The notes beneath the pieces are model-generated. The model made no database searches and had not been told where the DNA came from. It was given only the letters and a program-made list of their open reading frames with translations. Of a DNA stretch of 64,000 nt, positions 16,614 through 31,329 are shown in pieces. Position 1 is the first letter of the stretch. The number at the start of each line of letters is the position of its first letter. The DNA lies in the NCBI RefSeq assembly GCF_002261355.1, contig NZ_NEVU01000001.1, positions 124,001 to 188,000 on the forward strand, written 5' to 3'. This DNA is from Bordetella genomosp. 12. GTDB lineage: Bacteria; Pseudomonadota; Gammaproteobacteria; Burkholderiales; Burkholderiaceae_B. The translations under genes were made by a program, and so were the position numbers.

Positions 16614-18029
16614 ATGACTCGTCCCGCCTTAGAACTCCGGCCTGGTCAGCATTTGACCCTGACCCCGCAACTGCAACAGTCCATCCGGCTGCTGCAGCTG
16701 TCTTCGCTGGAGCTGGAGGCAGAAATCTCCCAAGCCCTGGCTGAAAATCCGTTGCTGGAACGCGACGAAACGCCCGCCGATCAGGTCGACAGCGATCCGC
16801 AGCGCGAGGCCAGCGTCGAAACCGCCGAGGCGCCGGACACCGAGTTGCGGTTTGACGAAATGCCCGGAGCGGGCGGCGTCTATCCGGACGAGGACAGCGA
16901 TTCGCCCGCCCGCAGCGATACCTTGCGCGAACATCTGCTGCAGCAACTGGCCCTGACGCGCGCCGGGCGGCGCGATGCCGCGCTGGCCGCCCTGCTCATC
17001 GATGAACTGGACGACAACGGCTATCTCGGCTCGCCGCTGGACGAAATCCTGCAATGGCTGCCGGCCGAGCTGGAGGTCGACGAAGATGAGCTGCGCGCGG
17101 CGTTGAGCCTGTTGCAGTCCTTCGATCCGCCGGGCATCGGCGCGCGCGATATGGGCGAGTGCCTGTTGCTCCAGTTGCGCCACCCCGACCTGGGTCGTCT
17201 GCCCGAGGCCGCCCAACCGGCGGTGCTGGCCTGCGCGCGGGCGCTCTGTGCCCAGCATCTGCCCCTGCTCGCCACCGGCAATCCGGCGCGCCTGCGCGAG
17301 CTGCTGCGGGTCGATGAGGCCACGCTGCGCGCGGCGCGGGCGCTCATCGTGCGGCTCGAACCCAGGCCAGGGCGGGCCTGGACGGTGCCGGCCGCCGATT
17401 ACGCCGTGCCCGATGTGCTGGTGCGCAGAACGCGCCAGGGCTGGCAGGCCGTGCTCAACAGTGCGGTCATGCCGCGCCTGCAGGTCAACGGTCTGTATGC
17501 GCAGATGCTGGCCAATCAGCGCGAGGCGGCCTACGCCGGCTTGAATGCCCAGCTCCAGCAGGCGCGCTGGATGATCCGCAACGTCGAGCAGCGCTTCGAC
17601 ACCATCTTGCGCGTGGCGCAGGCCATCGTCGCCCATCAGGCCGAATTCTTCAGCCGCGGCCCGGCGGCCATGCGGCCGCTGATACTCAAAGACATCGCCG
17701 GCGAGCTCGGGCTGCACGAGTCGACGATTTCGCGGGCCACCACGCAAAAGTACATGCTCACGCCATTTGGCACGCTCGAACTCAAACGGTTTTTTGGCAC
17801 GGGCGTGTCCACCGATAGCGGCGACTCGGCGTCGGCCACCGCCGTGCAGGAACACATCCGGCAGATGGTGGCCGAAGAAAACCGCGCCAAACCCCTGTCC
17901 GACAGCCAGATCATGGAGCGGCTGGCCAGCCAGGGCATCGTGATTGCCCGGCGGACCGTGGCCAAATATCGCGAGGCCTTGCGCATCGCGCCGGCCGCGG
18001 TACGCAAAGCCCAGGCCGCCGCCCGCTAA
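16614..18029 (+). CDS. rpoN: RNA polymerase sigma-54 factor
   Basis: The 471-residue product directs RNA polymerase to -24/-12 promoters. Region I is Gln/Leu-rich (LTLTPQLQQSIRLLQL), an acidic region II spans about 50-100, and the core-binding domain follows. The HTH is LGLHESTISRATTQKYM and the diagnostic RpoN box ARRTVAKYRE is at 445-454. The start MTRPALELRPGQ matches family N-termini. An in-frame ATG at 16596 would add MQNIVP and is also possible. The gene is not flanked by the lptB and hpf/ptsN genes common elsewhere. Confidence 0.93.
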   Translation: MTRPALELRPGQHLTLTPQLQQSIRLLQLSSLELEAEISQALAENPLLERDETPADQVDSDPQREASVETAEAPDTELRFDEMPGAGGVYPDEDSDSPARSDTLREHLLQQLALTRAGRRDAALAALLIDELDDNGYLGSPLDEILQWLPAELEVDEDELRAALSLLQSFDPPGIGARDMGECLLLQLRHPDLGRLPEAAQPAVLACARALCAQHLPLLATGNPARLRELLRVDEATLRAARALIVRLEPRPGRAWTVPAADYAVPDVLVRRTRQGWQAVLNSAVMPRLQVNGLYAQMLANQREAAYAGLNAQLQQARWMIRNVEQRFDTILRVAQAIVAHQAEFFSRGPAAMRPLILKDIAGELGLHESTISRATTQKYMLTPFGTLELKRFFGTGVSTDSGDSASATAVQEHIRQMVAEENRAKPLSDSQIMERLASQGIVIARRTVAKYREALRIAPAAVRKAQAAAR

Positions 18030-18137
18030 AGGGCGTTGGGGGAGCTTATCAGGGACGGATATAAGCTTATTCGTCCCTTTTTTCAACGGGTTACGCCCGG
18101 TGCACCACGCTAAAAAATGTCTTGCATCGGGCTTGCA

Positions 18138-18170
18138 TGAGAATCGCTTATTGCCGATAATCATTCTCAT
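18138..18170 (+). promoter_or_regulatory. Fur-like operator overlapping the bfd start codon
   Basis: The inverted arms TGAGAAT (18138-18144) and ATTCTCA (18163-18169) enclose GATAATCATTCTCAT (18156-18170). This is close to the Fur box half GATAATCATTNTC. The site covers the ATG, so iron-loaded Fur binding would block bfd expression. Iron-repressed bfd is known in other proteobacteria. Confidence 0.55.
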
Positions 18171-18447
18171 GTACGTTTGCATCTGTAATGCCGTCACCGA
18201 ACGCCAAGTCCGCGCCTGCGTGGATGCCGGCGCCAGTTCGCTGGGCGATTTGCAATTCGAGCTGGGGGTTGCCTCCTGCTGTGGTTGCTGCGCCGCCACG
18301 GCCAGCGAGTACCTCCCCGGCGGACGCGCTTCCAGCGTGTGCGACGTACGCTCCATCGCGGTGCCGGTCAACACGCCGGGCGCGATGATCGAGGCCGAAC
18401 AGCCCGCGGCAAACGCTTTCCCCATTCCGCTGGTGGCCGCGGCCTGA
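18169..18447 (+). CDS. bfd: Bacterioferritin-associated ferredoxin
   Basis: A 92-residue [2Fe-2S] protein that passes electrons to bacterioferritin so stored Fe(III) is released as Fe(II). The cluster ligands are C4, C6, C38 and C41 (MYVCICNAV and a C-C-G-C-C run at 37-41), the same pattern as E. coli Bfd. The family core ends near residue 55, and about 37 extra residues follow, which is longer than the usual 64-75 residues. bfr lies 1.4 kb downstream. The Fur-like site over the start suggests iron repression. Confidence 0.85.
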   Translation: MYVCICNAVTERQVRACVDAGASSLGDLQFELGVASCCGCCAATASEYLPGGRASSVCDVRSIAVPVNTPGAMIEAEQPAANAFPIPLVAAA

Positions 18448-19807: not shown

Positions 19808-20284
19808 ATGAAGGGCGATAAAACGGTTATCCAGTTTCTGAACAAGCAACTGACCAACGAACTGACGGCCATCAACCAGTATTTTCTGCATGCACGCATG
19901 CTGAACCACTGGGGCCTGAACAAACTGGGCAAGCACGAGTACGAAGAGTCGATCGAAGAAATGAAGCACGCCGATCGCCTGATCGAACGCATCTTCATGC
20001 TCGACGGCCTGCCCAATCTGCAGGACCTGCACAAGCTGCTGATCGGCGAGGATGTGCCCGAATTGCTGGCCTGTGATCTGAAGGTCGAGCAGACCGCCCA
20101 GGCCACGCTGAAAGACGGCATTGCCTACTGTGAGTCCGTGCGCGACTATGTCTCGCGCGACCTGCTGCAAGGCATCCTGGACGACACCGAAGACCACATC
20201 GACTACCTCGAGACCCAGATCGGCCTGATCGATCAGGTGGGCCTGCAGAACTATCTGCAAAGCCAGATGGAAGTCGCCGGCTGA
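19808..20284 (+). CDS. bfr: Bacterioferritin
   Basis: The 158-residue four-helix-bundle subunit forms a 24-mer iron store with haem. Ferroxidase ligands E18, E51, H54, E94 and H130 are at the E. coli Bfr numbers, and the haem ligand M52 is present. The remaining ligand position, E127 in E. coli, is threonine here, with glutamate at 128. The C-terminus [10 protein letters not shown] is typical. Iron release would use the Bfd encoded upstream. Confidence 0.95.
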
Positions 20285-21400: not shown

Positions 21401-22843
21401 CTAGAGGCCGAGGTTCACGTATTTGATTTCCGTGTACTCCTCGATGCCGTACTTCGAGCCTTCGCGTCCCAGCCCGGAAGCTTTGACGCCGCCGAAAGGC
21501 GCCACTTCGGTGGAGATCGCGCCGGCGTTGACGCCGACCATGCCGTACTCCAGCGCCTCCGAGAAACGAAAGATTCGCTTGATGTCCTGCGTGTAGAAAT
21601 ACGCGGCCAGCCCGTACTCGGTGTCGTTGGCGCGGGCCAGAACCTCGGCTTCTTCGTGAAACCGGAACAACGGGGCGAGAGGGCCGAAAGTCTCTTCCTT
21701 GGCAACGAGCGCCTCGGGGCAGACATCCACCAGAACCGTGGGCTCGAAGAAGGTGCCTCCCAGCGGATGGGGACGACCCCCAGTCAAAATGGTCGCCCCT
21801 TTTGCGACGGCGTCATCGATGTGGGCCTGGGTCTTGGCCATGGCCGCGGCATCGATGAGCGGCCCGAGCGCCACGCCGCTGTCCTGGCCGTTGCCCACGC
21901 GCAAGGCCTGAACGGCGGTCGCCAGCCTTTGGGCAAAGTCCTCGTAGACGCTGTCCTGCACATAGAACCGATTGGCGCAAACGCAGGTCTGCCCGTTGTT
22001 GCGGTACTTGGCGATCAGCGCGCCGGCGACGGCGGCGTCGAGGTCGGCGTCTTCGAAGACGATGAAGGGGGCGTTGCCGCCCAGCTCCAGCGAGAGTTTC
22101 TTGATGTCATGCGCACATTGCGCCATCAGCAGCCGGCCGACCTGCGTCGAACCGGTGAAGCTCAGCTTCCTCACGGTAGGGTTACTGGTCAGCTCGGTGC
22201 CGATCTCAACGGCGTGGCCGGTCACCACGTTGAACACGCCTGCCGGAATGCCGGCCTGTTCGGCCAGCGCAGCCAGAGCCAGGGCAGAGAAAGGCGTTTG
22301 CGGCGCGGGCTTGAGCACCACCGTGCAACCTGCGGCCAGCGCGGGCGCGACCTTGCGAGTGATCATGGCGCTGGGGAAGTTCCACGGGGTGATCGCGGCC
22401 GTCACGCCGACGGGTTGCTTGAACACCAGCAGTTTCTTGTCGGCCTGGGGAGCCGGGATCACGTCGCCGTACAGCCGCTTACCCTCTTCGGCGAACCACT
22501 CTACGTAGGCCGCGGCATACTCAATCTCGCCGCGCGCCTCGGCCAGGGGTTTGCCCTGTTCGAGCGTCATCAGGCGGGCCAAGGCTTCCTGATTCGAGAG
22601 GATCAGCTCGAACCAGCGACGCAGCGCGGCCGCGCGGGTCTTGGCCGGCAGCGCCCGCCACGTGTCCAGTGCTCTGTCCGCGGCGCCGATGGCCTGCCGG
22701 GTCTCGGCCGCGCCCATCAGCGGGACCGCGCCTATCCGCTCGCCGTTGGCGGGATTACGCACTTCCTGGACCCGTCCGTCCGTGGCATCGAGCCAGCGCC
22801 CATCGATGTAGGCTTGTTGTTTGAGTAGCGTGAGGTCGTTCAT
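21401..22843 (-). CDS. NAD(P)-dependent aldehyde dehydrogenase, succinate-semialdehyde type
   Basis: The 480-residue aldehyde dehydrogenase has the general base E253 (SLELGG) and the nucleophile C287 (GQTCVCANR), and the cofactor loop FTGSTQVGR. It most resembles GabD/SSADH enzymes. In this operon it probably oxidises an aldehyde formed after the monooxygenase step, for example from an epoxide or alcohol, but GABA or semialdehyde use cannot be excluded. AGGA precedes the ATG. It is separated from the ABM gene by 209 bases, so it may also have its own promoter. Confidence 0.85.
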   Translation of the reverse strand: MNDLTLLKQQAYIDGRWLDATDGRVQEVRNPANGERIGAVPLMGAAETRQAIGAADRALDTWRALPAKTRAAALRRWFELILSNQEALARLMTLEQGKPLAEARGEIEYAAAYVEWFAEEGKRLYGDVIPAPQADKKLLVFKQPVGVTAAITPWNFPSAMITRKVAPALAAGCTVVLKPAPQTPFSALALAALAEQAGIPAGVFNVVTGHAVEIGTELTSNPTVRKLSFTGSTQVGRLLMAQCAHDIKKLSLELGGNAPFIVFEDADLDAAVAGALIAKYRNNGQTCVCANRFYVQDSVYEDFAQRLATAVQALRVGNGQDSGVALGPLIDAAAMAKTQAHIDDAVAKGATILTGGRPHPLGGTFFEPTVLVDVCPEALVAKEETFGPLAPLFRFHEEAEVLARANDTEYGLAAYFYTQDIKRIFRFSEALEYGMVGVNAGAISTEVAPFGGVKASGLGREGSKYGIEEYTEIKYVNLGL

Positions 22844-23052: not shown

Positions 23053-23343
23053 TCAGCCTACGGCCGTGAAGCGATCCAGGGAAAACGGACGCGCCAGAAG
23101 CGGCGCCGCGCGCTGGACGACGGCGGCGATATGGGGATCGGCCAAATGGCGGTCGAGCTCCTGGGGGCCGTGCCATTGTTCGATGAACAGCAGCTCCAGT
23201 TCGTTGCCCTCGCGGCTGACCAGATCACACTGGATACAGCCGGGATCGTTGCGAATCGGCTCCACGAGGCCGATCAGGAGGTCTCTGACCTCGTCGATCG
23301 ACTCAGGACGCGAAGTAAAGGACGCGATGACATGAAGTGCCAT
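23053..23343 (-). CDS. Antibiotic-biosynthesis-monooxygenase (ABM) domain protein
   Basis: A 96-residue single-domain protein of the dimeric alpha-beta ABM/YgiN fold (MALHVIASFTSRPES, ECD-like IQCDLVSR, LLFIEQWHGPQELDRHL). Members include quinol monooxygenases and small cofactor-free oxygenases, and others have no known activity. The start at 23343 matches family N-termini. It lies between an NTF2-like gene (72-base gap) and the aldehyde dehydrogenase in the monooxygenase operon, so a role on the oxidised product or a quinone by-product is plausible but inferred. Confidence 0.8.
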   Translation of the reverse strand: MALHVIASFTSRPESIDEVRDLLIGLVEPIRNDPGCIQCDLVSREGNELELLFIEQWHGPQELDRHLADPHIAAVVQRAAPLLARPFSLDRFTAVG

Positions 23344-23415
23344 GAAGAACTCCGTTAGCGAAGCAAAAAGACGATCTGCGTGCGCCACGGCCCGTCAAGG
23401 CCGCCGCGCGTGGGT

Positions 23416-23802
23416 TCAGGCCGAGGTGAGCGATTTGCGGTAGGAGTCCTTGCGCACGATCTTGTGATCCTGGAACTCCCACAGATCGCAGCCACGCACG
23501 CACAGCTTGCTGCCGTCGGCCTTGGTGCCGGTCAGCGCCCATTCGGAAATCGCCTTGTGTTCGAGGAACCAGTGCCCCTGCGGCTTGTAGTGGGCGTCGG
23601 GCAAGGCCGCAAAGCCGGCGGCGAAGCCTTCCCGGATGGCCGCCTTGCCCACGAACCGTTTGCCCCAAGGCTCGGGGCCGGCTGCCGCTTCCCAGATGCT
23701 GTCTTCGGCGAAGAACGCCATGATCGCGTCGAGATCATGGGTGTTGAACGCCGCCATGATGGCGTCCAGCGTGGCGATGGAAATGTGCTTTGAGTCAGTC
23801 AT
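23416..23802 (-). CDS. NTF2/SnoaL-like protein (third copy)
   Basis: The 128-residue cone-shaped NTF2-fold protein carries FNTHDLDAIMAFFAEDSIWE at the N-terminus and RGCDLWEFQDHKIVRKDSYR at the C-terminal sheet. D119 sits where SnoaL-type cyclases and limonene-epoxide hydrolase carry a catalytic aspartate. The family includes isomerases, cyclases, dehydratases and epoxide hydrolases, so a product-processing role is possible but not shown. It starts 12 bases after the L22-MIP18 gene. Confidence 0.78.
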   Translation of the reverse strand: MTDSKHISIATLDAIMAAFNTHDLDAIMAFFAEDSIWEAAAGPEPWGKRFVGKAAIREGFAAGFAALPDAHYKPQGHWFLEHKAISEWALTGTKADGSKLCVRGCDLWEFQDHKIVRKDSYRKSLTSA

Positions 23803-23814
23803 GACGGGGTCTCT

Positions 23815-24561
23815 CTAGAACTTGTTGAATCCGATGGCCGCGAGTTGTTCGCGTCCGGAGGGCGTGATGTCCGCGGGGCGCCAGCTCGGCTGCCACATCC
23901 AATCGACCGTGAATTCGGTATTGCGCTCGGCCAGGATCGTGCGCATCTGATCCGTCATGACCTTGGCCAGGGGGCAGGCCGGCGAGGTCAGTGTCATGGT
24001 GATGGTGGCGTGGCCGGCGTCATCGAGCCTGACCTGGCGCACGAAGCCGAGATCGACGATGTTCACGCCCAGATCGGGATCGAGGACGGTAAGCAGCGCC
24101 TGGCGAATCTCGCTCTCGGCGGCGGTCTCCGGCGCTGGCGTCCAGGACGGGGTGTCCGCGACGCCGGGCGCCGGCGAAGCGCTGTCGATGTCGATTTCCG
24201 GCGCCAGCCCGGGAGGCGCCAGCACCAGAGTGATGTCGCTGGTCGGGCTGCTGATCCAATCCGCCAGGCCGTGGGCTTTGCGCCGGATGCGAATAATGTG
24301 CTCGGCTTGAACGACCCGCGCGCGGTTGAGCACCAGCTGATCCGCTTCGACGCCGGCCTCTTCGGCTTGCGCCAGCGCGCGGTCCAGCATGCGCGCCAGC
24401 GGCTCGCAGGTCGGGCCCGGGCCAAAGCGCAGGCGCGTGCGCGCCTTGTCGGCGGGCGTGTTCATGACCCATTTCAGCGCCACCGCGGCTTCGGATTGCG
24501 CGAGCCTCAGTTGTGCCTCGCGCACCGTGATGGTTTCGATTGCCTCGGCGACGGTATTCAT
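23815..24561 (-). CDS. Fusion of a ribosomal-L22-like domain with a MIP18/DUF59 Fe-S maturation domain
   Basis: The product has 248 residues. Residues about 18-114 align with ribosomal protein L22. The spacing of AE (67-68), the segment DQLVLNRARVV (74-84), KAHGLADWI (95-103) and TSDITLVL (107-114) matches AE, DDLKVTKIFV, RAKGRADRI and TSHITVVV of E. coli L22. A flexible Pro/Ala linker (118-148) follows. Residues 150-225 are a MIP18/DUF59 domain (DPDLGVNIVDLGFV, then SPACPLAKVM with C196). DUF59 proteins such as PaaD and SufT help mature iron-sulfur or di-iron enzymes. The ATG overlaps the reductase stop (ATGA), so it is translationally coupled to the monooxygenase. A maturation role is inferred, and the use of the L22-like part is unknown. 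Confidence 0.8.
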   Translation of the reverse strand: MNTVAEAIETITVREAQLRLAQSEAAVALKWVMNTPADKARTRLRFGPGPTCEPLARMLDRALAQAEEAGVEADQLVLNRARVVQAEHIIRIRRKAHGLADWISSPTSDITLVLAPPGLAPEIDIDSASPAPGVADTPSWTPAPETAAESEIRQALLTVLDPDLGVNIVDLGFVRQVRLDDAGHATITMTLTSPACPLAKVMTDQMRTILAERNTEFTVDWMWQPSWRPADITPSGREQLAAIGFNKF

Positions 24562-25802
24562 GCGTTGACCTCCCGGCGTTGCGGCCGCACCGGCCGGGGC
24601 AGCAGGCTTTTCAGATCAAAGGCCGGATCGGCAAGCTGCTCCTTGGTGACTTCGTGCGCGATGGCCATGATCTTGCGCGCCTGCATCAGGTCTTGGGGCC
24701 GGTTCAAGGAGATGATGGCCTTGATCCGCTTGCCCTCGAGCGAGAACACCGACAGCGACCGGTCGGCGGCGGATCCGCGGATCACTTCGACGCAATCCCC
24801 GACGGCTTGCCCATAGGCCTGCAGGCTATGTTCGTACTGCTGCGACCAGAAGAAATGCTCTTCCGTGAAGGGCTGCGGTTGATCCATCAGGTTGCGGGCG
24901 ATATTGATGCCGTGGCGCATGGCCGTGTCGTGATGCTCGACGCGGAACATGCGGCCATATACCGGATGAAAGCGCGCCGCCACGTCGCCGATGGCATAGA
25001 CGTCCGGCGCGCTCGTGCGCCCGTACTCATCGGTAAGAATGCCGCCGTCGACCTCTATGCCGGCCTGCTCGGCGAGTTCGACATTGGGAATCGAACCGAT
25101 CGCCACGAGCACGTCATCGCAGACCACGACTTCCCCCCGGCCGGTGGTCAATTCGACGCCGGTGGGGGTTTCCTTGAGCTTGGCCACGATCTCGCCGGTG
25201 CGCATCTGCACGCCGTGCTCGCGGTGAATATCGATGACGGCGCGCCCGATCTCCTGGCAGACGGCACGGCCCAGCGGCAGTGCGCCCGGATCGAAGACGG
25301 TCACGCGCAAGCCTTTCTCGGCGGCGAAGGCGGCGACTTCGCAGCCCAGAAAGCCCGCGCCGAGCACCGCCAGGTGTTGGCCGGGGATGAGGCGATGACG
25401 CAGGCGTTCGGAGTCCTCCAGCGAACGCATGACGTGCACCCGCTCGCCGGAGAATCCGGGCAGGGTTTTCGCGCGCACGCCGGTGGCAATGATCAGCGCG
25501 TCATAAGTCAGCGATCGGCCATCGGACAACGCCACTTCGTGTGCTTCGACGTCGATGCGCGTGGCACGGGTCGACAGCAGCACGGTGACATCGTTCTGTG
25601 CGTACCAGTCCTGGGGGTTGATGCGGAACTGACTGCGGTCGAACTGGCCGGTCAGCCAGTCCTTGGACAGCGGCGGGCGCTCGTAAGGCAGATCCGGTTC
25701 GTCGCAGACGATGATGATTTCGCCTGCGAAACCGGCGCTGCGCAGTTCACGGGCAGCTGTCGCGGCGGCCACGCCGCCGCCAATGAAAACGAATCGTTTC
25801 AT
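24558..25802 (-). CDS. FAD-dependent NAD(P)H-ferredoxin reductase, glutathione-reductase type
   Basis: The 414-residue flavoprotein has an N-terminal FAD Rossmann motif (FIGGGVAAATAARELR), a second dinucleotide fold for NAD(P)H (VLGAGFLGCEVAAF) and the ATG and VYAIGDVA motifs. It belongs to the BphA4/rubredoxin-reductase group, not the FNR-plus-plant-ferredoxin type of TmoF. It would pass electrons from NAD(P)H to the Rieske protein encoded just upstream. The start MKRFVFIGGG at 25802 overlaps the Rieske stop as ATGA. An upstream in-frame start would read through the Rieske 3' end. Confidence 0.9.
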   Translation of the reverse strand: MKRFVFIGGGVAAATAARELRSAGFAGEIIIVCDEPDLPYERPPLSKDWLTGQFDRSQFRINPQDWYAQNDVTVLLSTRATRIDVEAHEVALSDGRSLTYDALIIATGVRAKTLPGFSGERVHVMRSLEDSERLRHRLIPGQHLAVLGAGFLGCEVAAFAAEKGLRVTVFDPGALPLGRAVCQEIGRAVIDIHREHGVQMRTGEIVAKLKETPTGVELTTGRGEVVVCDDVLVAIGSIPNVELAEQAGIEVDGGILTDEYGRTSAPDVYAIGDVAARFHPVYGRMFRVEHHDTAMRHGINIARNLMDQPQPFTEEHFFWSQQYEHSLQAYGQAVGDCVEVIRGSAADRSLSVFSLEGKRIKAIISLNRPQDLMQARKIMAIAHEVTKEQLADPAFDLKSLLPRPVRPQRREVNA

Positions 25803-26128
25803 TCGACGCTCACTCGAATCGTCCCGTCGTCGTCGACCTGGCAGGGGTATTTGTGAAGCTGGCACGTGGACGGATTGATGCCCTTACCCGTCGTGACGTC
25901 GAACTGCCAGAGATGTTGCGCGCAGGTCAGCACACCCTCGCTGAGGTCGCCGTCGTGCAGCGGCCATTGCTGATGCGGGCAGCGGTCGTGATAGGCGTGG
26001 ATGTCGCCATCGGCGTTGATGATCAGGACCTTCTTCCCGTTCACCTCGACGCCCGTCATCTCTCCTTCCCAAATATCGTCAATGTGGGAAACCTCTTGCC
26101 ATTGCGGCTGGGTCGATGTTTCGCTCAT
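25799..26128 (-). CDS. Rieske [2Fe-2S] ferredoxin of the monooxygenase (TmoC-like)
   Basis: A 109-residue Rieske ferredoxin with ligands C50-x-H52 (RCPHQ) and C69-x2-H72 (CAQHLW). It is close in length to T4moC (112 residues), whose ligands are C45, H47, C64 and H67. There is no signal or membrane anchor, so it is a soluble carrier between the flavoprotein reductase and the di-iron hydroxylase. It lies 6 bases after the beta-subunit gene and overlaps the reductase gene by 4 bases. Confidence 0.92.
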   Translation of the reverse strand: MSETSTQPQWQEVSHIDDIWEGEMTGVEVNGKKVLIINADGDIHAYHDRCPHQQWPLHDGDLSEGVLTCAQHLWQFDVTTGKGINPSTCQLHKYPCQVDDDGTIRVSVE

Positions 26129-26134
26129 GGCTGT

Positions 26135-27169
26135 TTACTCCGGTTTGCTGGCGAAGAACTCGGCGTGCAGCTTCTCGCGGGCCGCGCGTGCCGTGGCCAC
26201 GACGTCATCGGCGGATTTGCCCAGCAGCGGAGCCAGCCCCGCGGCGGCGCGATCGGCGATCACGGACCACTTCTGGGTCCATTTCTGCAGCGGCTTGATG
26301 TTCGTCTCGCGTTTGGAGATGGCGTAGCGCGCCAAGGCGCTGCTCCAACGGTTGCGGCGGGCGCTGTCCTCGGCGAGCAGCTTGGCGACCAGCCAGTCCT
26401 GCTCGTCGCCGTTGTTGCGGCTGACTTCGCCCAGTTGATGCAGCAGCACGTTGTCCAGGGTCGGCGCCAGCACGAGGTTCAAGGCGGTGAGCGCCTCGCC
26501 CCAGTCGTAGGTAATGAGCGCGCGCTCCATGGCTTCACGGGTGGGTTGCCATGCCGGATGCTTTTCCCAGAGTTCGCGCTCTTTCACCCCGATGCCGGAT
26601 TCCGGATGCGCGATCTGCAGCGCGCGGGTGCGATAGGCGATGGTGGTCACCCGACGCAGAAAGTCGCCGCTGGCATAGCAGGCCGCATTGGTGATGTACG
26701 AGCTCGGGGCGATGTAGCCCAGATAGGCCTGGGCTTGCTGCAGCCCATGCACCAGGTATCGTTGCGGCGCCAAGGCATGCGCCAGCACGTCGACCTGCGC
26801 GCTGCTCAGGCGCTCATCCGAGCCGGAGTCGCCATATTGTTCGAGAACGCCGTCCAGTTTGGTCTGCTCGTTGGCCTGCAGATTGACGTAGGCGCGGTAA
26901 TGGATCTGATCGGGGTCGCGAAAGCCATCCCAATCATCGGTCTGCAGGGGCGAGTGTTCCCGGTACGTCATGAACCAGAGGTTGCCGGGCGAGGACGGGT
27001 TTTGTTCGAAGACATTGGCCCGGCCAGGCACGCGGCCCCGGGCGTTCCAGTTTTGCGCATGCGTGACGATTTCGTACTCGCTGGGCATGCGGCGGACGTT
27101 GCCAAACGCACTGAAGGTGCGCATTTTGCGTTGCTTGGGCGCGGCGCTGTCGTTGGACTGGGTGCTCAT
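26135..27169 (-). CDS. Di-iron monooxygenase hydroxylase beta subunit (TmoE-like)
   Basis: The 344-residue helical subunit is of the kind that forms the (alpha-beta-gamma)2 hydroxylase core. Recognisable family segments are KMRTFSAFGNVRRMPSEYEI, HYRAYVNLQANEQTKLD and the C-terminal KPLQKWTQKW. It has the carboxylate-bridged fold without the iron ligands, as expected for beta subunits. The ATG at 27169 overlaps the coupling-protein stop (ATGA). Its position after the coupling gene differs from the tmoABCDEF order. Confidence 0.9.
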   Translation of the reverse strand: MSTQSNDSAAPKQRKMRTFSAFGNVRRMPSEYEIVTHAQNWNARGRVPGRANVFEQNPSSPGNLWFMTYREHSPLQTDDWDGFRDPDQIHYRAYVNLQANEQTKLDGVLEQYGDSGSDERLSSAQVDVLAHALAPQRYLVHGLQQAQAYLGYIAPSSYITNAACYASGDFLRRVTTIAYRTRALQIAHPESGIGVKERELWEKHPAWQPTREAMERALITYDWGEALTALNLVLAPTLDNVLLHQLGEVSRNNGDEQDWLVAKLLAEDSARRNRWSSALARYAISKRETNIKPLQKWTQKWSVIADRAAAGLAPLLGKSADDVVATARAAREKLHAEFFASKPE

Positions 27170-27486
27170 TGTTTGTCTCCTTCCTGGGCGATGTTGCCCG
27201 TGCGTCCCGACTGGCCGCTGTACCAGGTGATGGAATCGCTTTCCGTTGCCACTCGGCCCGAGAACGACGACAGCACCGCTTCGAGCGAGCGGATGCGGTA
27301 GTCGGAGCCGAGGTAGTTCTGTAATGAAGACTCGGTCAGTACGAGTCGGTCTTCGGCCTGCACGCGAAGATAGGCGCCTCGGTCGATGATCTCGATTTCG
27401 CGATCGGGGTTGTCATCTTCGATGGCAGCCACGATCTTGTCGGTTTCATCGCTGACGCGCAGCACCGGGCCTACGGGGTTCTTCAT
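27166..27486 (-). CDS. Monooxygenase coupling/effector protein (TmoD/MmoB family)
   Basis: The cofactor-less 106-residue effector protein binds the hydroxylase near the di-iron site and couples NADH use to oxygenation. Family marks are NPVGPVLR (3-10), IVAAIEDDNP, DRGAYLRVQAEDRLVLT and LEAVLSSFSGRV, which follow T4moD closely. The start overlaps the gamma-subunit stop as ATGA, and the stop overlaps the beta start the same way. Confidence 0.92.
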   Translation of the reverse strand: MKNPVGPVLRVSDETDKIVAAIEDDNPDREIEIIDRGAYLRVQAEDRLVLTESSLQNYLGSDYRIRSLEAVLSSFSGRVATESDSITWYSGQSGRTGNIAQEGDKQ

Positions 27487-27770
27487 GCTGCGGCTCCTGC
27501 GGGAATCTCATACTCCACGGCGACGTGGTCGAGCGGTTTGATGTTGGCTTGAGCCACGGTCATGTGGCCGGGCAGTTTCTTGCCCTGATGGATCACGACC
27601 TTGGGATACGGCAGCGCGCGCACGCGCCGCCCTTCGGAGTGGTAGGCCACCGCGGCGGCCACTTCGTCCATGGTGTTGGCGGTGGTCACCGGTACCAGAA
27701 TCGCGACAAAATCGGTCGAGAAGATGGCGTTCAGCGGAACGACTTCGGCTGCGGCTTGTTGATCGGACAT
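27483..27770 (-). CDS. Monooxygenase hydroxylase gamma subunit (TmoB-like)
   Basis: The 95-residue ubiquitin-like-fold subunit is somewhat longer than T4moB (about 84 residues). The core FVAILVPVTTANTMDEVAAA and GRRVRALPYPKVVIHQG fits TmoB. I chose the ATG at 27770 because AGAGGAG lies about 10 bases upstream. An alternative GTG at 27779 overlaps the alpha-subunit stop as GTGA but is too close to that ribosome binding site. Confidence 0.88.
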   Translation of the reverse strand: MSDQQAAAEVVPLNAIFSTDFVAILVPVTTANTMDEVAAAVAYHSEGRRVRALPYPKVVIHQGKKLPGHMTVAQANIKPLDHVAVEYEIPAGAAA

Positions 27771-27775
27771 GGTCG

Positions 27776-29296
27776 TCACGCTCCTCTGAGGATGAGGCCT
27801 TTCGCCTCGCGGCCGGCGTAGTCTTTCGCCCAGGCCTGGTAATCGATCTCTTCGCCCATGACATCAGGCGTGATGCCCATGTAGTCGAGAATGCCCTGTA
27901 CGGTGGGCGGCTGGATGTCGCCGGACAGAAAGCGCGTGACCAGCGTCTTGTGGTTGACGTTGTCGCGGTCCTTCCACCAGATCTGACGGCAGCCGTTGGT
28001 GCAGAAATGCATCATCTTGCCGTTGTAGTTCAGGGAGTGGTCGCGGATGCGCCACTGGCCGTCGCGGGATTGCGTCGGGTTGCACATCGGCAGATGGCAG
28101 GTCTCGCACAGCCAGGGCAAGGTCTCGGGCAGCAGCGCCGGATTGACGTTGCCGGCATTGACGTTGTCGATGATGACATCCCATTTGTCGCCGTAGACCT
28201 TCTCCCAATTGGGGTACTTTTCGCGCAGCCATTCGCGTTCGTCCTTGGAGACCCCGGCGCGCGGGTTCCACCACAGCGTCGGGCGCCACCACCACAGGCC
28301 CATGTGCAGGCTGTGATGCCAGGTGTCCAGGCCGCGCATGAATTCATCCCAGAACCAGGGCTTCTTCAGCCCGTAGTCCTCGATCGTGCGGATGAACTGG
28401 TCGACGATCCACTCCTCCATGAATTCACGGAAGGATTGCTTGCGGTGTTCCAGCGGGGTGTAGTAGTCCATGACCGGGCCGGTCAGCGCGGCGAAGGCCC
28501 GCGCATTGGCCCAGAAGCCTTTGTCGATCACCCATTGCGCGCGTTGCGGATCGTGCTCGATCAGGATCTCCAGCGTGGCCACGCCCTGCTGCGAGTGGCG
28601 CGCCTCATCGGTCTGGATGGTGGAGATCATGTTGGCGAAGTTCACATCGCCGGCTTCGAGCGCGTCGGCCGCGAGCGCGACGAACTGCAGGTTGGTGAAG
28701 CCGGTTTCGAACGTCAGCGGCAACATCAGCGCGCAGTCCACGGCGTTGGACGTCGTCATGAATCCGTCGAACAGCGTGCGCAACGCCACCGGCACCCAGT
28801 CATTGGTGCTGTAGGTCTTCTGCGTCCAGTCGAACTGCGGATCCTTGGCGACCAGTTCATGCCCGAAGAAGGTGTTCAGGGCATTGTGGCGCAACTCATC
28901 GAGATGACCATAGATGGCCATATTGCGCCAGGCGCCGTTCAGGCCGAAGCGCGCCATCTTCAGTTCGGCCAGGGTGGCCGCGTACTCAACCTGGGCCACG
29001 CCGCCAAAGTGCTGCTTGGTGCCCGACTTCCAGCCTTCGTCGAGGTGATCGAAGGTCTTGGTGCGCTGCAACGCCGCCTTCACGCCGTAGGTCGCGGCTT
29101 CCTTTTCGCGCTGGGTATAGACGTACTCCGGATAGCTGACCTTGTAGCCCTCCTCCCATTTCAACCACGCTTCGCGCGGCACCTTGCCCGTGCCGGTGAG
29201 CCAGTCAGGATAGACGGCTTCGTCATCCACATAGGAAAGCGTCCAGTCCACGTCACGGACGAACCCCTGCCATTCTTCGCGTTTCAGCAATGTCAT
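27776..29296 (-). CDS. Soluble di-iron monooxygenase hydroxylase alpha subunit (TmoA-like)
   Basis: The 506-residue catalytic subunit hydroxylates or epoxidises a hydrocarbon with O2. The six iron ligands are E104, E134, H137 (DELRH), E197, E231 and H234 (DEARH), identical in number to toluene 4-monooxygenase TmoA. The active-site T201, N202, F205 and gate Q228 are also kept. Pocket positions differ: V100, V103 (glycine in TmoA) and N141 (glutamine in TmoA). A YHS-like zinc module follows at about 395-442 (C397, C400, C405, C432, C436). It is first of six co-translated oxygenase genes. The substrate is not readable; toluene, alkene or terpene are options. Confidence 0.95.
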   Translation of the reverse strand: MTLLKREEWQGFVRDVDWTLSYVDDEAVYPDWLTGTGKVPREAWLKWEEGYKVSYPEYVYTQREKEAATYGVKAALQRTKTFDHLDEGWKSGTKQHFGGVAQVEYAATLAELKMARFGLNGAWRNMAIYGHLDELRHNALNTFFGHELVAKDPQFDWTQKTYSTNDWVPVALRTLFDGFMTTSNAVDCALMLPLTFETGFTNLQFVALAADALEAGDVNFANMISTIQTDEARHSQQGVATLEILIEHDPQRAQWVIDKGFWANARAFAALTGPVMDYYTPLEHRKQSFREFMEEWIVDQFIRTIEDYGLKKPWFWDEFMRGLDTWHHSLHMGLWWWRPTLWWNPRAGVSKDEREWLREKYPNWEKVYGDKWDVIIDNVNAGNVNPALLPETLPWLCETCHLPMCNPTQSRDGQWRIRDHSLNYNGKMMHFCTNGCRQIWWKDRDNVNHKTLVTRFLSGDIQPPTVQGILDYMGITPDVMGEEIDYQAWAKDYAGREAKGLILRGA

Positions 29297-29319: not shown

Positions 29320-29781
29320 TCAGTCAACTTCAAAGTGGCCAAGCTGACGGTTCACGCCGGCGTTGTCCCAATAAGCCCGGATGTTGTCGATCAGGCCGTC
29401 TTCGTTTACGTGCAGAATGAACAGATGAGGCTCGGCGAAGTACTGGCCCTTGGAGCTGATGAAGCCCCAGGCCGACTCCTGAGTGCCGGTGATGTCGCAG
29501 GCGACCACGACATCGCCGTTGTCGTTGCCATCGATATGGAAGACCGTGTTGCCGAGATCGGGGAAGGCGTTGATCAGGCCGCTCCAGATAACGCGGCCCA
29601 CGGTTTGCACTTTGCCGTCGCCGCGGACCACGCGCTGCTTGGCCCAGACTTCGAAGGGGATGTACTCGAAGTTAGCGTTATCGGTACAGAGTTCCGACAT
29701 GCCGGGCACATCGTGGTCACGATAGCGATCGAAGAACTCGGTCACGATCTCGACGGGGGTTTGGGTGACAAGGGTGTTCAT
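29320..29781 (-). CDS. NTF2/SnoaL-like protein (second copy)
   Basis: The 153-residue NTF2-fold protein starts MNTLVTQTPVEIVTEFFDRY and carries SELCTDNANFEYIPFEVWAK, VWAC-type strands and a final sheet LIDNIRAYWDNAGVNRQLG. It lies 23 bases before the alpha subunit and 12 bases after another NTF2-like gene. The limonene-epoxide-hydrolase aspartate position appears to be alanine (IRAYW), so epoxide hydrolysis by that mechanism is doubtful. An isomerase, cyclase or binding role remains open. Confidence 0.78.
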   Translation of the reverse strand: MNTLVTQTPVEIVTEFFDRYRDHDVPGMSELCTDNANFEYIPFEVWAKQRVVRGDGKVQTVGRVIWSGLINAFPDLGNTVFHIDGNDNGDVVVACDITGTQESAWGFISSKGQYFAEPHLFILHVNEDGLIDNIRAYWDNAGVNRQLGHFEVD

Positions 29782-29793
29782 GGGAGGCTCCGG

Positions 29794-30225
29794 TCAAACG
29801 ATCGTGACTTGATCCTGGCGTTTGACGGCCAGGCGACGATAGAGTTGGTTTTGACACCAGTAGGCATCGATGCCGATGATCTGGCCGTTGTCGACAGTGA
29901 AGCGCCAGGCGGTGTCGAGATCGAGGTGCTTTTCCTGGTTGATGGCGCCGAGAAAGTCCGCGGACTGCGTGCCTTCGAGCTTGAATTCGGCCAGCGCCAC
30001 TTTCCCGGCTTCGATGACATTGCGCATCGTGATCAGCAAATCCGGAAAGGCGGTGACGATATCGGTGAGCAGTTGGCTGATCACGTCCTTGCTGCCTTCG
30101 CGCACTTGCAGCGGAAAGACCGTGATCTTGGCCTGGTCGGACACCAAGGCGAGCGCGGACGCGACGTCCTTGGCGCGAAACGCATTGAAGAAGGTTGCGA
30201 CCGTCTGGCCGGAACTGTTGGACAT
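29794..30225 (-). CDS. NTF2/SnoaL-like protein (first copy)
   Basis: The 143-residue NTF2-fold protein (VATFFNAFRAKDVASALAL near the N-terminus, WRFTVDNGQIIGIDAYWCQ near the C-terminus). It is clearly related to the adjacent 153-residue copy, sharing the FPDL-x5-NV-type centre and the ID-AYW end. AAGGA lies before the ATG. It follows the DJ-1-like gene by 25 bases. The function is unknown and a substrate-binding or isomerase role is a guess. Confidence 0.78.
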   Translation of the reverse strand: MSNSSGQTVATFFNAFRAKDVASALALVSDQAKITVFPLQVREGSKDVISQLLTDIVTAFPDLLITMRNVIEAGKVALAEFKLEGTQSADFLGAINQEKHLDLDTAWRFTVDNGQIIGIDAYWCQNQLYRRLAVKRQDQVTIV

Positions 30226-30250: not shown

Positions 30251-31276
30251 TCAGGCCGAAGCGGCGCGCAGCGCTTTGACGACGGCGTCGGCGGTCGCCT
30301 CGGTCGAGTTGGGGTTCTGGCCGGTGATCAGGTTGCGGTCTACGACGACGTGGGAGGCCCAGGCGTAGGGCGCATCGTCAAAGATGGCGCCTGCGTTTTG
30401 CAGCGCATCGGCGAGATACCAGGTCATGCCCAGTTGGCCGATGCGGTTCTGGTCTTCCTCGTCGTTCGTGTAGGAGGTCAGGCGGTAGCCTTCGAACATC
30501 CATTGGCCATCGGCGCGATCGGGTGCCGACAGCAGCATGGCCGGCCCGTGGCACAGCGAGGAGATGATCTTTCCGTCGTTGTGCAGAATGCGCAGCAGCC
30601 GGCTCACATCCGCGTTGTCGGGCAGGTCCACCATCGGGCCATGGCCGCCGGGGACGAACAGCGCATCGAACTGCGCCATCTGTTCGTCGCTCAGCGACGA
30701 CAGCGCGATCGGGTTGTTGAAGCTCGCTATCGCGGCCAGCTTTGCGGCGCGTTCGTCGGCGATGGCTTGCGCGGCCGCGCGCAGTTCTTCGATGGCCGCG
30801 CGTATCGTGGCTTCCGGCAGCGCGCCATCGAGGCCCTCGCTGAGCATGACTTCGCTGAGCTGCCGCTTCTGGCGCCAGGCGATCTTCGCGGCTTTGCTCA
30901 GCAGCTGATGGGCTTCATCCGACGTTTTTCCGGCCTCCATCAGCAGCTTGGCGATACGCCGGGAGGCCATCAGCTCCTGTCCCGTCGTGTGGTGCAGGGT
31001 GATGCGGATGTCGTCGGGATCGTGATGGAAAGTGCGATACACCGAGGCGAAATAATCCCGGTCGATGTCCGGGTAGTGAAAAATATGCTCGAGGCCGTAA
31101 GGGTCGGGCACGGGCTTGTTGCCGTCGGGCGTGAGCACGACGACGTCAAAACCGGCGTCGACAAAGCGCTCATACGATTTGAGAGCCTCTTCGGCCCAGT
31201 AGCCAGTCGGGTGCGCCGAGGCCTCTTTCAGATCGATGGCGTTTGCGCTCGTCACGAGAAATGCGATGCGTGGCAT
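30251..31276 (-). CDS. Enlarged DJ-1/PfpI (Hsp31-like) protein
   Basis: The 341-residue class I glutamine-amidotransferase-like protein has the loop PGGHGPMVDLP (209-219) and the nucleophile elbow SLCHGPAML with C242. A helical, charged insertion occupies about 62-190, between the first strands and the PGGHGP loop, which makes it about 110 residues longer than the related protein encoded at 33114. Hsp31-type relatives act as glyoxalase III or chaperones. Detoxifying reactive dicarbonyls made by the pathway is plausible. The ATG at 31276 has AAGGA upstream, and the longer frame to 31645 lies across the GST gene. Confidence 0.82.
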   Translation of the reverse strand: MPRIAFLVTSANAIDLKEASAHPTGYWAEEALKSYERFVDAGFDVVVLTPDGNKPVPDPYGLEHIFHYPDIDRDYFASVYRTFHHDPDDIRITLHHTTGQELMASRRIAKLLMEAGKTSDEAHQLLSKAAKIAWRQKRQLSEVMLSEGLDGALPEATIRAAIEELRAAAQAIADERAAKLAAIASFNNPIALSSLSDEQMAQFDALFVPGGHGPMVDLPDNADVSRLLRILHNDGKIISSLCHGPAMLLSAPDRADGQWMFEGYRLTSYTNDEEDQNRIGQLGMTWYLADALQNAGAIFDDAPYAWASHVVVDRNLITGQNPNSTEATADAVVKALRAASA

Positions 31277-31329
31277 TGGGTTTTCCTTCGAATGTACGGA
31301 TCTGGTTTCGGCCGCGTCGCGTCCGGGGC

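Follow-up and report, generated by a model that had tools for sequence, protein, structure and literature searches.

An L22-like/DUF59 fusion protein encoded with a TmoA-like di-iron monooxygenase: a rare candidate maturation factor in Pseudomonadota and Actinomycetota

In this study, we describe a protein that joins a domain related to ribosomal protein uL22 to a DUF59 domain and whose gene directly follows those of a di-iron monooxygenase in Bordetella genomosp. 12. The analysis started from one stretch of 64,000 nucleotides, called the window hereafter. The fusion is real and crosses phyla, being present in Actinomycetota and Pseudomonadota, but it is rare. Judging from sequence and by analogy, we lean, with a little better than even confidence, towards a dedicated maturation factor of one catabolic di-iron monooxygenase, the client of which would most likely be the Rieske ferredoxin. 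A DUF59 protein that belongs to one oxygenase operon and has an extra domain of its own makes client choice testable with one small gene set. Moreover, the protein is a case, undescribed within the literature searched, of a universal ribosomal fold that has been conserved away from the ribosome, here as part of a metabolic accessory protein. As a speculation for biotechnology, such a factor might be missing when related monooxygenases express poorly in foreign hosts.

Results

Domain structure and reading frame of the fusion

The fusion gene (23815..24561) is encoded on the minus strand, from 24561 to 23815, the plus-strand letters being a different frame; it starts with ATG and encodes 248 amino acids with two Pfam domains. 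Residues 17-114 (24220..24513, minus strand) form a ribosomal-L22-like domain, which matches Ribosomal_L22 (PF00237) with 54.3 bits (E 1.7e-14, cut-off 28) over profile positions 5-103 of 104 and is also recovered by hhalign to true uL22 and by a profile search of the PDB. Within this domain, the alignment of four copies contains a conserved segment at residues 87-109 (24235..24303, minus strand; E.I.R.RRKAHG.ADWI.S.TSD), aligned with the uL22 hairpin. A linker that is variable in the alignment (residues 115-149; 24115..24219, minus strand) leads to the DUF59/FeS_assembly_P (MIP18-like) domain at residues 150-210 (23932..24114, minus strand; PF01883, 60.3 bits, E 2.2e-16, cut-off 23.5). Its Cys196 is invariant in 3/3 aligned sequences and is also present in the piece from the congener G005. 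A first-pass annotation of the letters had likened residues of about 18-114 to L22, quoting the motifs KAHGLADWI, TSDITLVL and DQL, and had placed a DUF59/MIP18 domain in the C-terminal half. All three motifs are present in the translation; Pfam, profile-profile comparison, a shuffle test and the PDB profile search agree on the L22 relationship, and the PF01883 match bears out the second domain.

Four loci carry the fusion: the window, a locus of an uncultured proteobacterium (L004, genome G268; alignment identity to the window fusion 69%), a plasmid of Rhodococcus koreensis R85 (L003, NZ_CP070611; 48%) and a locus of G005 (L013, G005:C1:1436000-1455000). The L22-like domains of L003, L004 and G005 score 59.0, 52.9 and 47.7 bits with PF00237 (cut-off 28). 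In the window, L003 and L004, three unrelated records, the fusion is a single uninterrupted ORF, and a gene-join artefact is ruled out by this together with the alignment. The frame of G005 is broken between the two domains, as might be expected if the fusion were an accident without function, caused by an assembly error or a chance in-frame join. We give such an accident hardly any credence, given the uninterrupted ORF in three unrelated records including Rhodococcus, and the low dN/dS against G005 and L004. Moreover, not only the fusion but also the alpha, beta, DJ-1 and porin genes of the G005 cluster are each interrupted, with alpha still 98% identical. The four further interrupted genes point to a poor, error-prone assembly or to a (recent) decay of the whole cluster.

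The dN/dS values (NG86) are all rough, since dS lies at 1.0 to 2.3. Between the window and G005 they are ~0.13 for the L22-like part and ~0.08 for the DUF59 part; between the window and L004 they are ~0.10 and ~0.20, respectively, as compared to 0.05 for alpha and 0.14 for the Rieske ferredoxin. We read this as purifying selection on both halves, which appear to diverge faster than the hydroxylase. Between the window and Rhodococcus, the L22-like part yields ~0.45, a weaker sign of constraint on it at that distance.

Relationship of the N-terminal domain to ribosomal protein uL22

Searching the PDB with the whole protein (phmmer) retrieved DUF59 chains and also uL22 chains, the latter with E values from 1.3e-7 upwards. 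A profile of the four L22-like domains only, with no ribosomal sequences included, retrieved 117 distinct sequences from the PDB with an E of 1 or lower (best E 3.2e-13), and the best 60 of these 117 matches are all L22/L17 proteins. Profile-profile comparison (hhalign) with 17 true uL22 gave a probability of 96.9 and an E of 1.8e-10 over 96 columns. The profile of these 17 proteins scores the L22-like domains of the window, L003 and L004 at 31.7, 39.8 and 29.7 bits, and the best shuffled window domain at 9.9, among 1883 matches listed of 2000 shuffles. A chance likeness to L22 is ruled out by the shuffles and the independent profile searches. AlphaFold models were of low confidence (mean pLDDT 48.1 in the single-sequence and 39.4 in the two-sequence run). 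With the poorer of them (39.4), Foldseek yielded a best E of 0.2 and no match at E <= 0.001; the top 28 of its 62 matches (50 listed) are chains from ribosome entries, none significant. The top-scoring solved chain for the L22-like profile is 5o60_T of Mycobacterium smegmatis. It stands above 10qm_a (E 3.1e-6; 665 entries), the L22 sequence with most PDB entries and presumably that of E. coli, and this ranking, rather than a tree, is a hint that the domain may have come from actinobacteria.

Even though the match to ribosomal protein uL22 (rplV) is nearly full-length and includes the hairpin segment, the fusion differs from it in lying outside a ribosomal operon, in being joined to DUF59, in a mean identity of ~25% and in the loss of most conserved basic positions. 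With the uL22 equivalog TIGR01044 it scores 32.8 bits, under the cut-off of 73.65. Compared to 32 uL22 sequences, a biased sample (all from Pseudomonadota, 30 of them the best-scoring ones), the L22-like copies have mean identities of 24.3 to 26.5% (overall 20.2 to 30.4%; window copy 25.3%, range 20.8-29.4%), as against 71% on average among the 32 themselves. At fifteen columns, 90% or more of the 32 have a K or an R; the four copies all have K/R at three of these, one copy only at another three and none at nine. The genome encodes a separate rplV (129.3 bits). In a survey of 299 Pseudomonadota genomes, PF00237 matched in 282, and two matches were seen, in a table read by hand, only in this genome and in G1443, which is fragmented (67% complete, 470 contigs). 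A second true rplV is ruled out by the TIGR01044 cut-off and the lost basic positions. By sequence, the domain appears to be a descendant of uL22 that is no longer ribosome-like.

These data bear on the idea that the L22-like domain has kept an affinity for RNA, or for the ribosome near its exit tunnel, so that DUF59 would meet nascent oxygenase subunits and metal would be inserted during their translation. The retention of the full uL22 domain and a small positive net charge of +3 to +6 would suit such a role, but true uL22 carries +6 to +13, and no copy has K or R at 9/15 of the conserved basic columns. Moreover, the uL22 site of the ribosome should be filled by the product of the separate rplV. 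We regard ribosome binding as very improbable.

Of the columns with an identity of 90% or more in uL22, the four copies share the uL22 residue at 13 (19, 40, 44, 62, 66, 70, 76, 83, 91, 96, 98, 100, 103) and agree on a different residue at 11. Invariant positions concentrate in segment 87-109, which we take to match the uL22 hairpin: 17/23 as compared to 26/70 elsewhere in residues 17-109 (Fisher p 0.002; four copies), or 17/23 as compared to 28/95 in the rest of residues 1-118 (p 1e-4; the last columns are without letters in cut rows). The segment was picked after the alignment had been viewed, so that both p values are indicative only. In true uL22, conserved columns are slightly richer in the same segment (12/23 vs 32/71).

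Operon of a TmoA-like di-iron monooxygenase

The fusion gene follows a row of minus-strand genes encoding the di-iron hydroxylase alpha subunit (27776..29296, PF02332), a TmoB-type gamma subunit (27483..27779, PF06234), an MmoB/DmpM coupling protein (27166..27486, PF02406), the hydroxylase beta subunit (26135..27169, PF02332), a Rieske ferredoxin (25799..26128, Pfam) and a BphA4/HcaD-type FAD ferredoxin reductase (24558..25802, Pfam/NCBIfam; start set at the ATGA overlap). A look for the fusion and its neighbourhood elsewhere, as the first-pass annotation had proposed, returned the same di-iron monooxygenase genes at 4/4 loci, always in the order alpha, TmoB, MmoB, beta, Rieske, reductase and then directly the fusion. 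The overlap of 4 bases with the reductase gene that it had noted (24558-24561) is there, as is a second one between the Rieske and reductase genes, and both recur in L003 and L004.

Upstream, on the same minus strand, lie two genes for SnoaL/NTF2-like proteins, 29320..29781 (just under the Pfam cut-off; conserved in L003, L004 and L013) and 29794..30225 (conserved at the other loci), and a gene for a long DJ-1/PfpI family protein (30251..31282, start inferred; conserved at the other loci). Downstream, also on the minus strand, follow genes for a SnoaL-like protein (23416..23802, PF12680; in L004 and L013, absent from L003), an antibiotic-biosynthesis-monooxygenase (ABM) domain protein (23053..23388, PF03992, start uncertain) and a succinate-semialdehyde dehydrogenase (21401..22843; NF008415 855.7 bits, cut-off 828). 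The clusters share the two upstream SnoaL/NTF2-like genes, the DJ-1/PfpI gene and, downstream, a relative of the succinate-semialdehyde dehydrogenase, which has 49-82% identity to that of the window at the other three loci and is so annotated in one case, in Rhodococcus.

Alpha, beta, a TmoB-type gamma subunit, an MmoB-type effector and a Rieske ferredoxin occur together in this one operon, as is required of the TmoA type and found in toluene-4-monooxygenase (T4MO) and isoprene monooxygenase. The order is A-B-D-E-C-F, as compared to A-B-C-D-E-F in two clusters of the T4MO/isoprene monooxygenase type that were viewed. The reductase consists of Pyr_redox_2 and Reductase_C and is HcaD/AndAa-like, yet under the cut-offs of these families; L003 encodes the same type. 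In the window and in R. koreensis it is thus BphA4/HcaD-like, as in Rieske dioxygenases, and unlike TmoF/IsoF. Reductases of this latter Fer2+FNR type are typical of TmoA-type di-iron monooxygenases, and a comparison reductase from a Rhodococcus sp. (in L051) has Fer2, FAD_binding_6 and NAD_binding_1. From its genes, we therefore assign the operon to a distinct TmoA-like di-iron monooxygenase with a BphA4-type reductase. With no Fer2 domain matched in this reductase, the operon is left with a single predicted Fe-S protein, the Rieske ferredoxin. For two related TmoA-type clusters that also encode Rieske proteins, the plasmid gene tables, which are incomplete, list no DUF59 gene at 8-9 kb or less from alpha, which argues that an enzyme of this kind does not in general depend on one.

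For a conserved Iso component, taken to be IsoA, identities of 71.2-74.6% across Gram groups have been reported (PMC12917321). The alpha subunit of the window, at ~75% to Rhodococcus, is close to that range, which suggests one conserved function. What this function acts on is a guess: the succinate-semialdehyde dehydrogenase or its relative at all four loci would fit a substrate that is opened to succinic semialdehyde, such as furan, a four-carbon ring. A search of the literature on growth with furan gave no relevant paper by title or abstract start. The toluene degradation genes of R. koreensis R85 are described as present only on plasmid R85_p2 (PMC10986565); these may be the cluster analysed here.

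Distribution of the fusion

The fusion was detected in 2/15 genomes of the genus, 2/268 of the family, 1/399 drawn from the order, 1/369 from the class and 1/398 from the phylum, and around G268 in 1/200 genomes drawn from its family and 1/3 from its genus; these sets overlap, and only the best few first-look candidates per genome were scored. All positives are the genome of the window, G005 or G268, so that beyond the query genomes only G005 was gained. Close relatives of alpha are present in 2/15 genomes of the genus, the same two that have the fusion, and a third genome, G002, has distant ones only (43% over part of the length, and 29%).

Of the 157 plasmid records that matched the whole protein (60 listed), a single one did so over at least 80% of the protein length. 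With just the N-terminal domain as query, three matched at E up to 1, with identities of 47%, 32% and 34%; of the latter two, one is annotated rplV and the other is without annotation. Alpha matched 68 plasmid records (30 listed). R. koreensis is 75.3% identical, the other 67 are under 60% and the next among the matches listed is at 48.5%; the sole match above 60% is hence the record with the fusion. No fusion away from this oxygenase was found in these searches, which covered Actinomycetota through plasmid records and a contig scan with six peptides. In this contig scan 335 stretches matched, one of which (L004) encodes a relative; as the six peptides are rigid, the true distribution is under-sampled, above all in Actinomycetota. 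A viral origin was considered and rejected, the 73 pattern matches among viral contigs including no relative.

Discussion

Comparison with SufT and PaaD

The best NCBIfam match of the C-terminal half is SufT (TIGR02945, SUF_assoc), with which it shares the DUF59 domain and the conserved cysteine. Its 64.4 bits are far under the cut-off of 143.4, and, unlike SufT, the fusion lies outside any suf operon and has the L22-like N-terminal domain. The nearest solved chain to the DUF59 half is 5ird_A (E 1.8e-23). A role of SufT in the maturation of Fe-S proteins has been reported, as has a conserved Cys in each of its homologues (PMC4982691). The same work sorts 761 homologues into the architectures S1-S9, three proteins having an N-terminal Rieske-type domain; as far as its available text goes, L22 is not named among these architectures, the 88 homologues of group S2 have an N-terminal motif given as unidentified and the role of the DUF59 domain itself was called unknown in 2016 (PMC4982691).

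PaaD, of the phenylacetyl-CoA epoxidase operon, resembles the fusion in being a DUF59 protein encoded with a multicomponent di-iron oxygenase. It differs in its C-terminal Cys-rich stretch, which the fusion is without, and in having no L22-like domain. Identity with PaaD is ruled out by the scores of the fusion (41.3 bits with TIGR02159, cut-off 108.15; 61.2 with NF041868, cut-off 180) and by a separate PaaD in the same genome (L016; TIGR02159 198.9 bits), which does have the Cys-rich stretch. A further DUF59 protein of the host genome is ApbC/Mrp-like by eye. PaaD was described as indispensable in vivo for the PaaABCE monooxygenase and not required in vitro (PMC4498308), whereas according to a 2026 paper there are conditions and strains in which it is not essential (PMC13186573). 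Maturation of a di-iron or Rieske centre by the fusion is plausible, given its DUF59 homology and the precedents of PaaD and SufT. Counting against it are the two TmoA-type clusters with no DUF59 gene annotated nearby, the PaaD and the ApbC/Mrp-like protein with which the host is already equipped, and the 2026 description of PaaD.

Proposed role of the two domains

We suggest that the DUF59 half works like SufT, CIA2 and PaaD, placing an Fe-S cluster or iron in a client through Cys196. The N-terminal half would be a uL22 descendant gone from the ribosome, in which most basic positions were replaced and the segment matching the hairpin was kept with a new conserved motif. Given its conservation, segment 87-109 may be a client-recognition arm or contact element and the L22-like domain an adaptor. 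As the most likely client we favour the Rieske ferredoxin: in both phyla, overlaps of 4 bases chain its gene to that of the reductase and the latter to that of the fusion. As it is also the only predicted Fe-S protein of the operon, we rank a factor directed to the Rieske ferredoxin first and one directed to the hydroxylase second.

In the latter case, the fusion would bring iron into the alpha subunit, with the L22-like domain docking there. PaaD sets a precedent, as it accompanies a di-iron epoxidase in which PaaE or PaaA was suggested by the authors as its target (PMC4498308), and alpha is the most conserved partner of the fusion, with 75% identity to Rhodococcus. The DUF59 work cited here, however, concerns Fe-S proteins, and the fusion gene is chained to the Rieske and reductase genes rather than to those of the hydroxylase, which makes the hydroxylase an unlikely client in our judgement. 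The fixed place next to the electron-transfer genes could also mean that the L22-like domain is a permanent subunit of the oxygenase complex or regulates it, through docking or the control of electron transfer, with DUF59 as a structural remnant. We hold this to be improbable: the DUF59 core with Cys196 is kept in all copies and dN/dS is low against G005 and L004. Moreover, T4MO-type enzymes, as far as we know, work without such a subunit.

To return to maturation of the Rieske ferredoxin, we tentatively extend this reading, and with clearly less confidence than the reading itself. The uL22 hairpin, which lines the nascent-chain tunnel, would have been domesticated to grip one oxygenase component, and the cassette would have been passed between Actinomycetota and Pseudomonadota. 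In a bolder form, the fusion might act on the nascent ferredoxin or hydroxylase during translation. Four sequences do not suffice to test for co-variation or to predict a structure with confidence.

The full-text literature on L22, monooxygenase and DUF59 together yielded one unrelated paper and no such fusion, and no description of an L22-like/DUF59 fusion was found in paper titles or abstract starts; domain databases may list the architecture. A review on what bacterial ribosomal proteins do beyond the ribosome mentions uL22/L22, in its accessible text, at three places: once in connection with 50S assembly and twice in the titles of references, which deal with uL22 loops and the tunnel (PMC10931766). 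The main text of the R. koreensis R85 genome paper does not contain the word 'ribosomal' (PMC10986565).

Further genes at the loci

Three SnoaL/NTF2-like genes flank the oxygenase (29320-30225 and 23416-23802). Few proteins of the cluster are as well conserved as that of 29320-29781 (88% to L004 and 62% to Rhodococcus), which therefore probably has a role in the pathway. R. koreensis has a serine hydroxymethyltransferase gene (L003:16099-17376; PF00464, 477.2 bits) between the ABM gene and the succinate-semialdehyde dehydrogenase gene, with no counterpart seen among the window genes scanned there. An ORF at 17944-18447 contains, from about 18169, a stretch that by eye resembles bacterioferritin-associated ferredoxin (no NCBIfam match at E up to 1e-10). 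A bacterioferritin gene (19808-20284; 249.6 bits, cut-off 125.55) is located just past the porin gene that ends the cluster.
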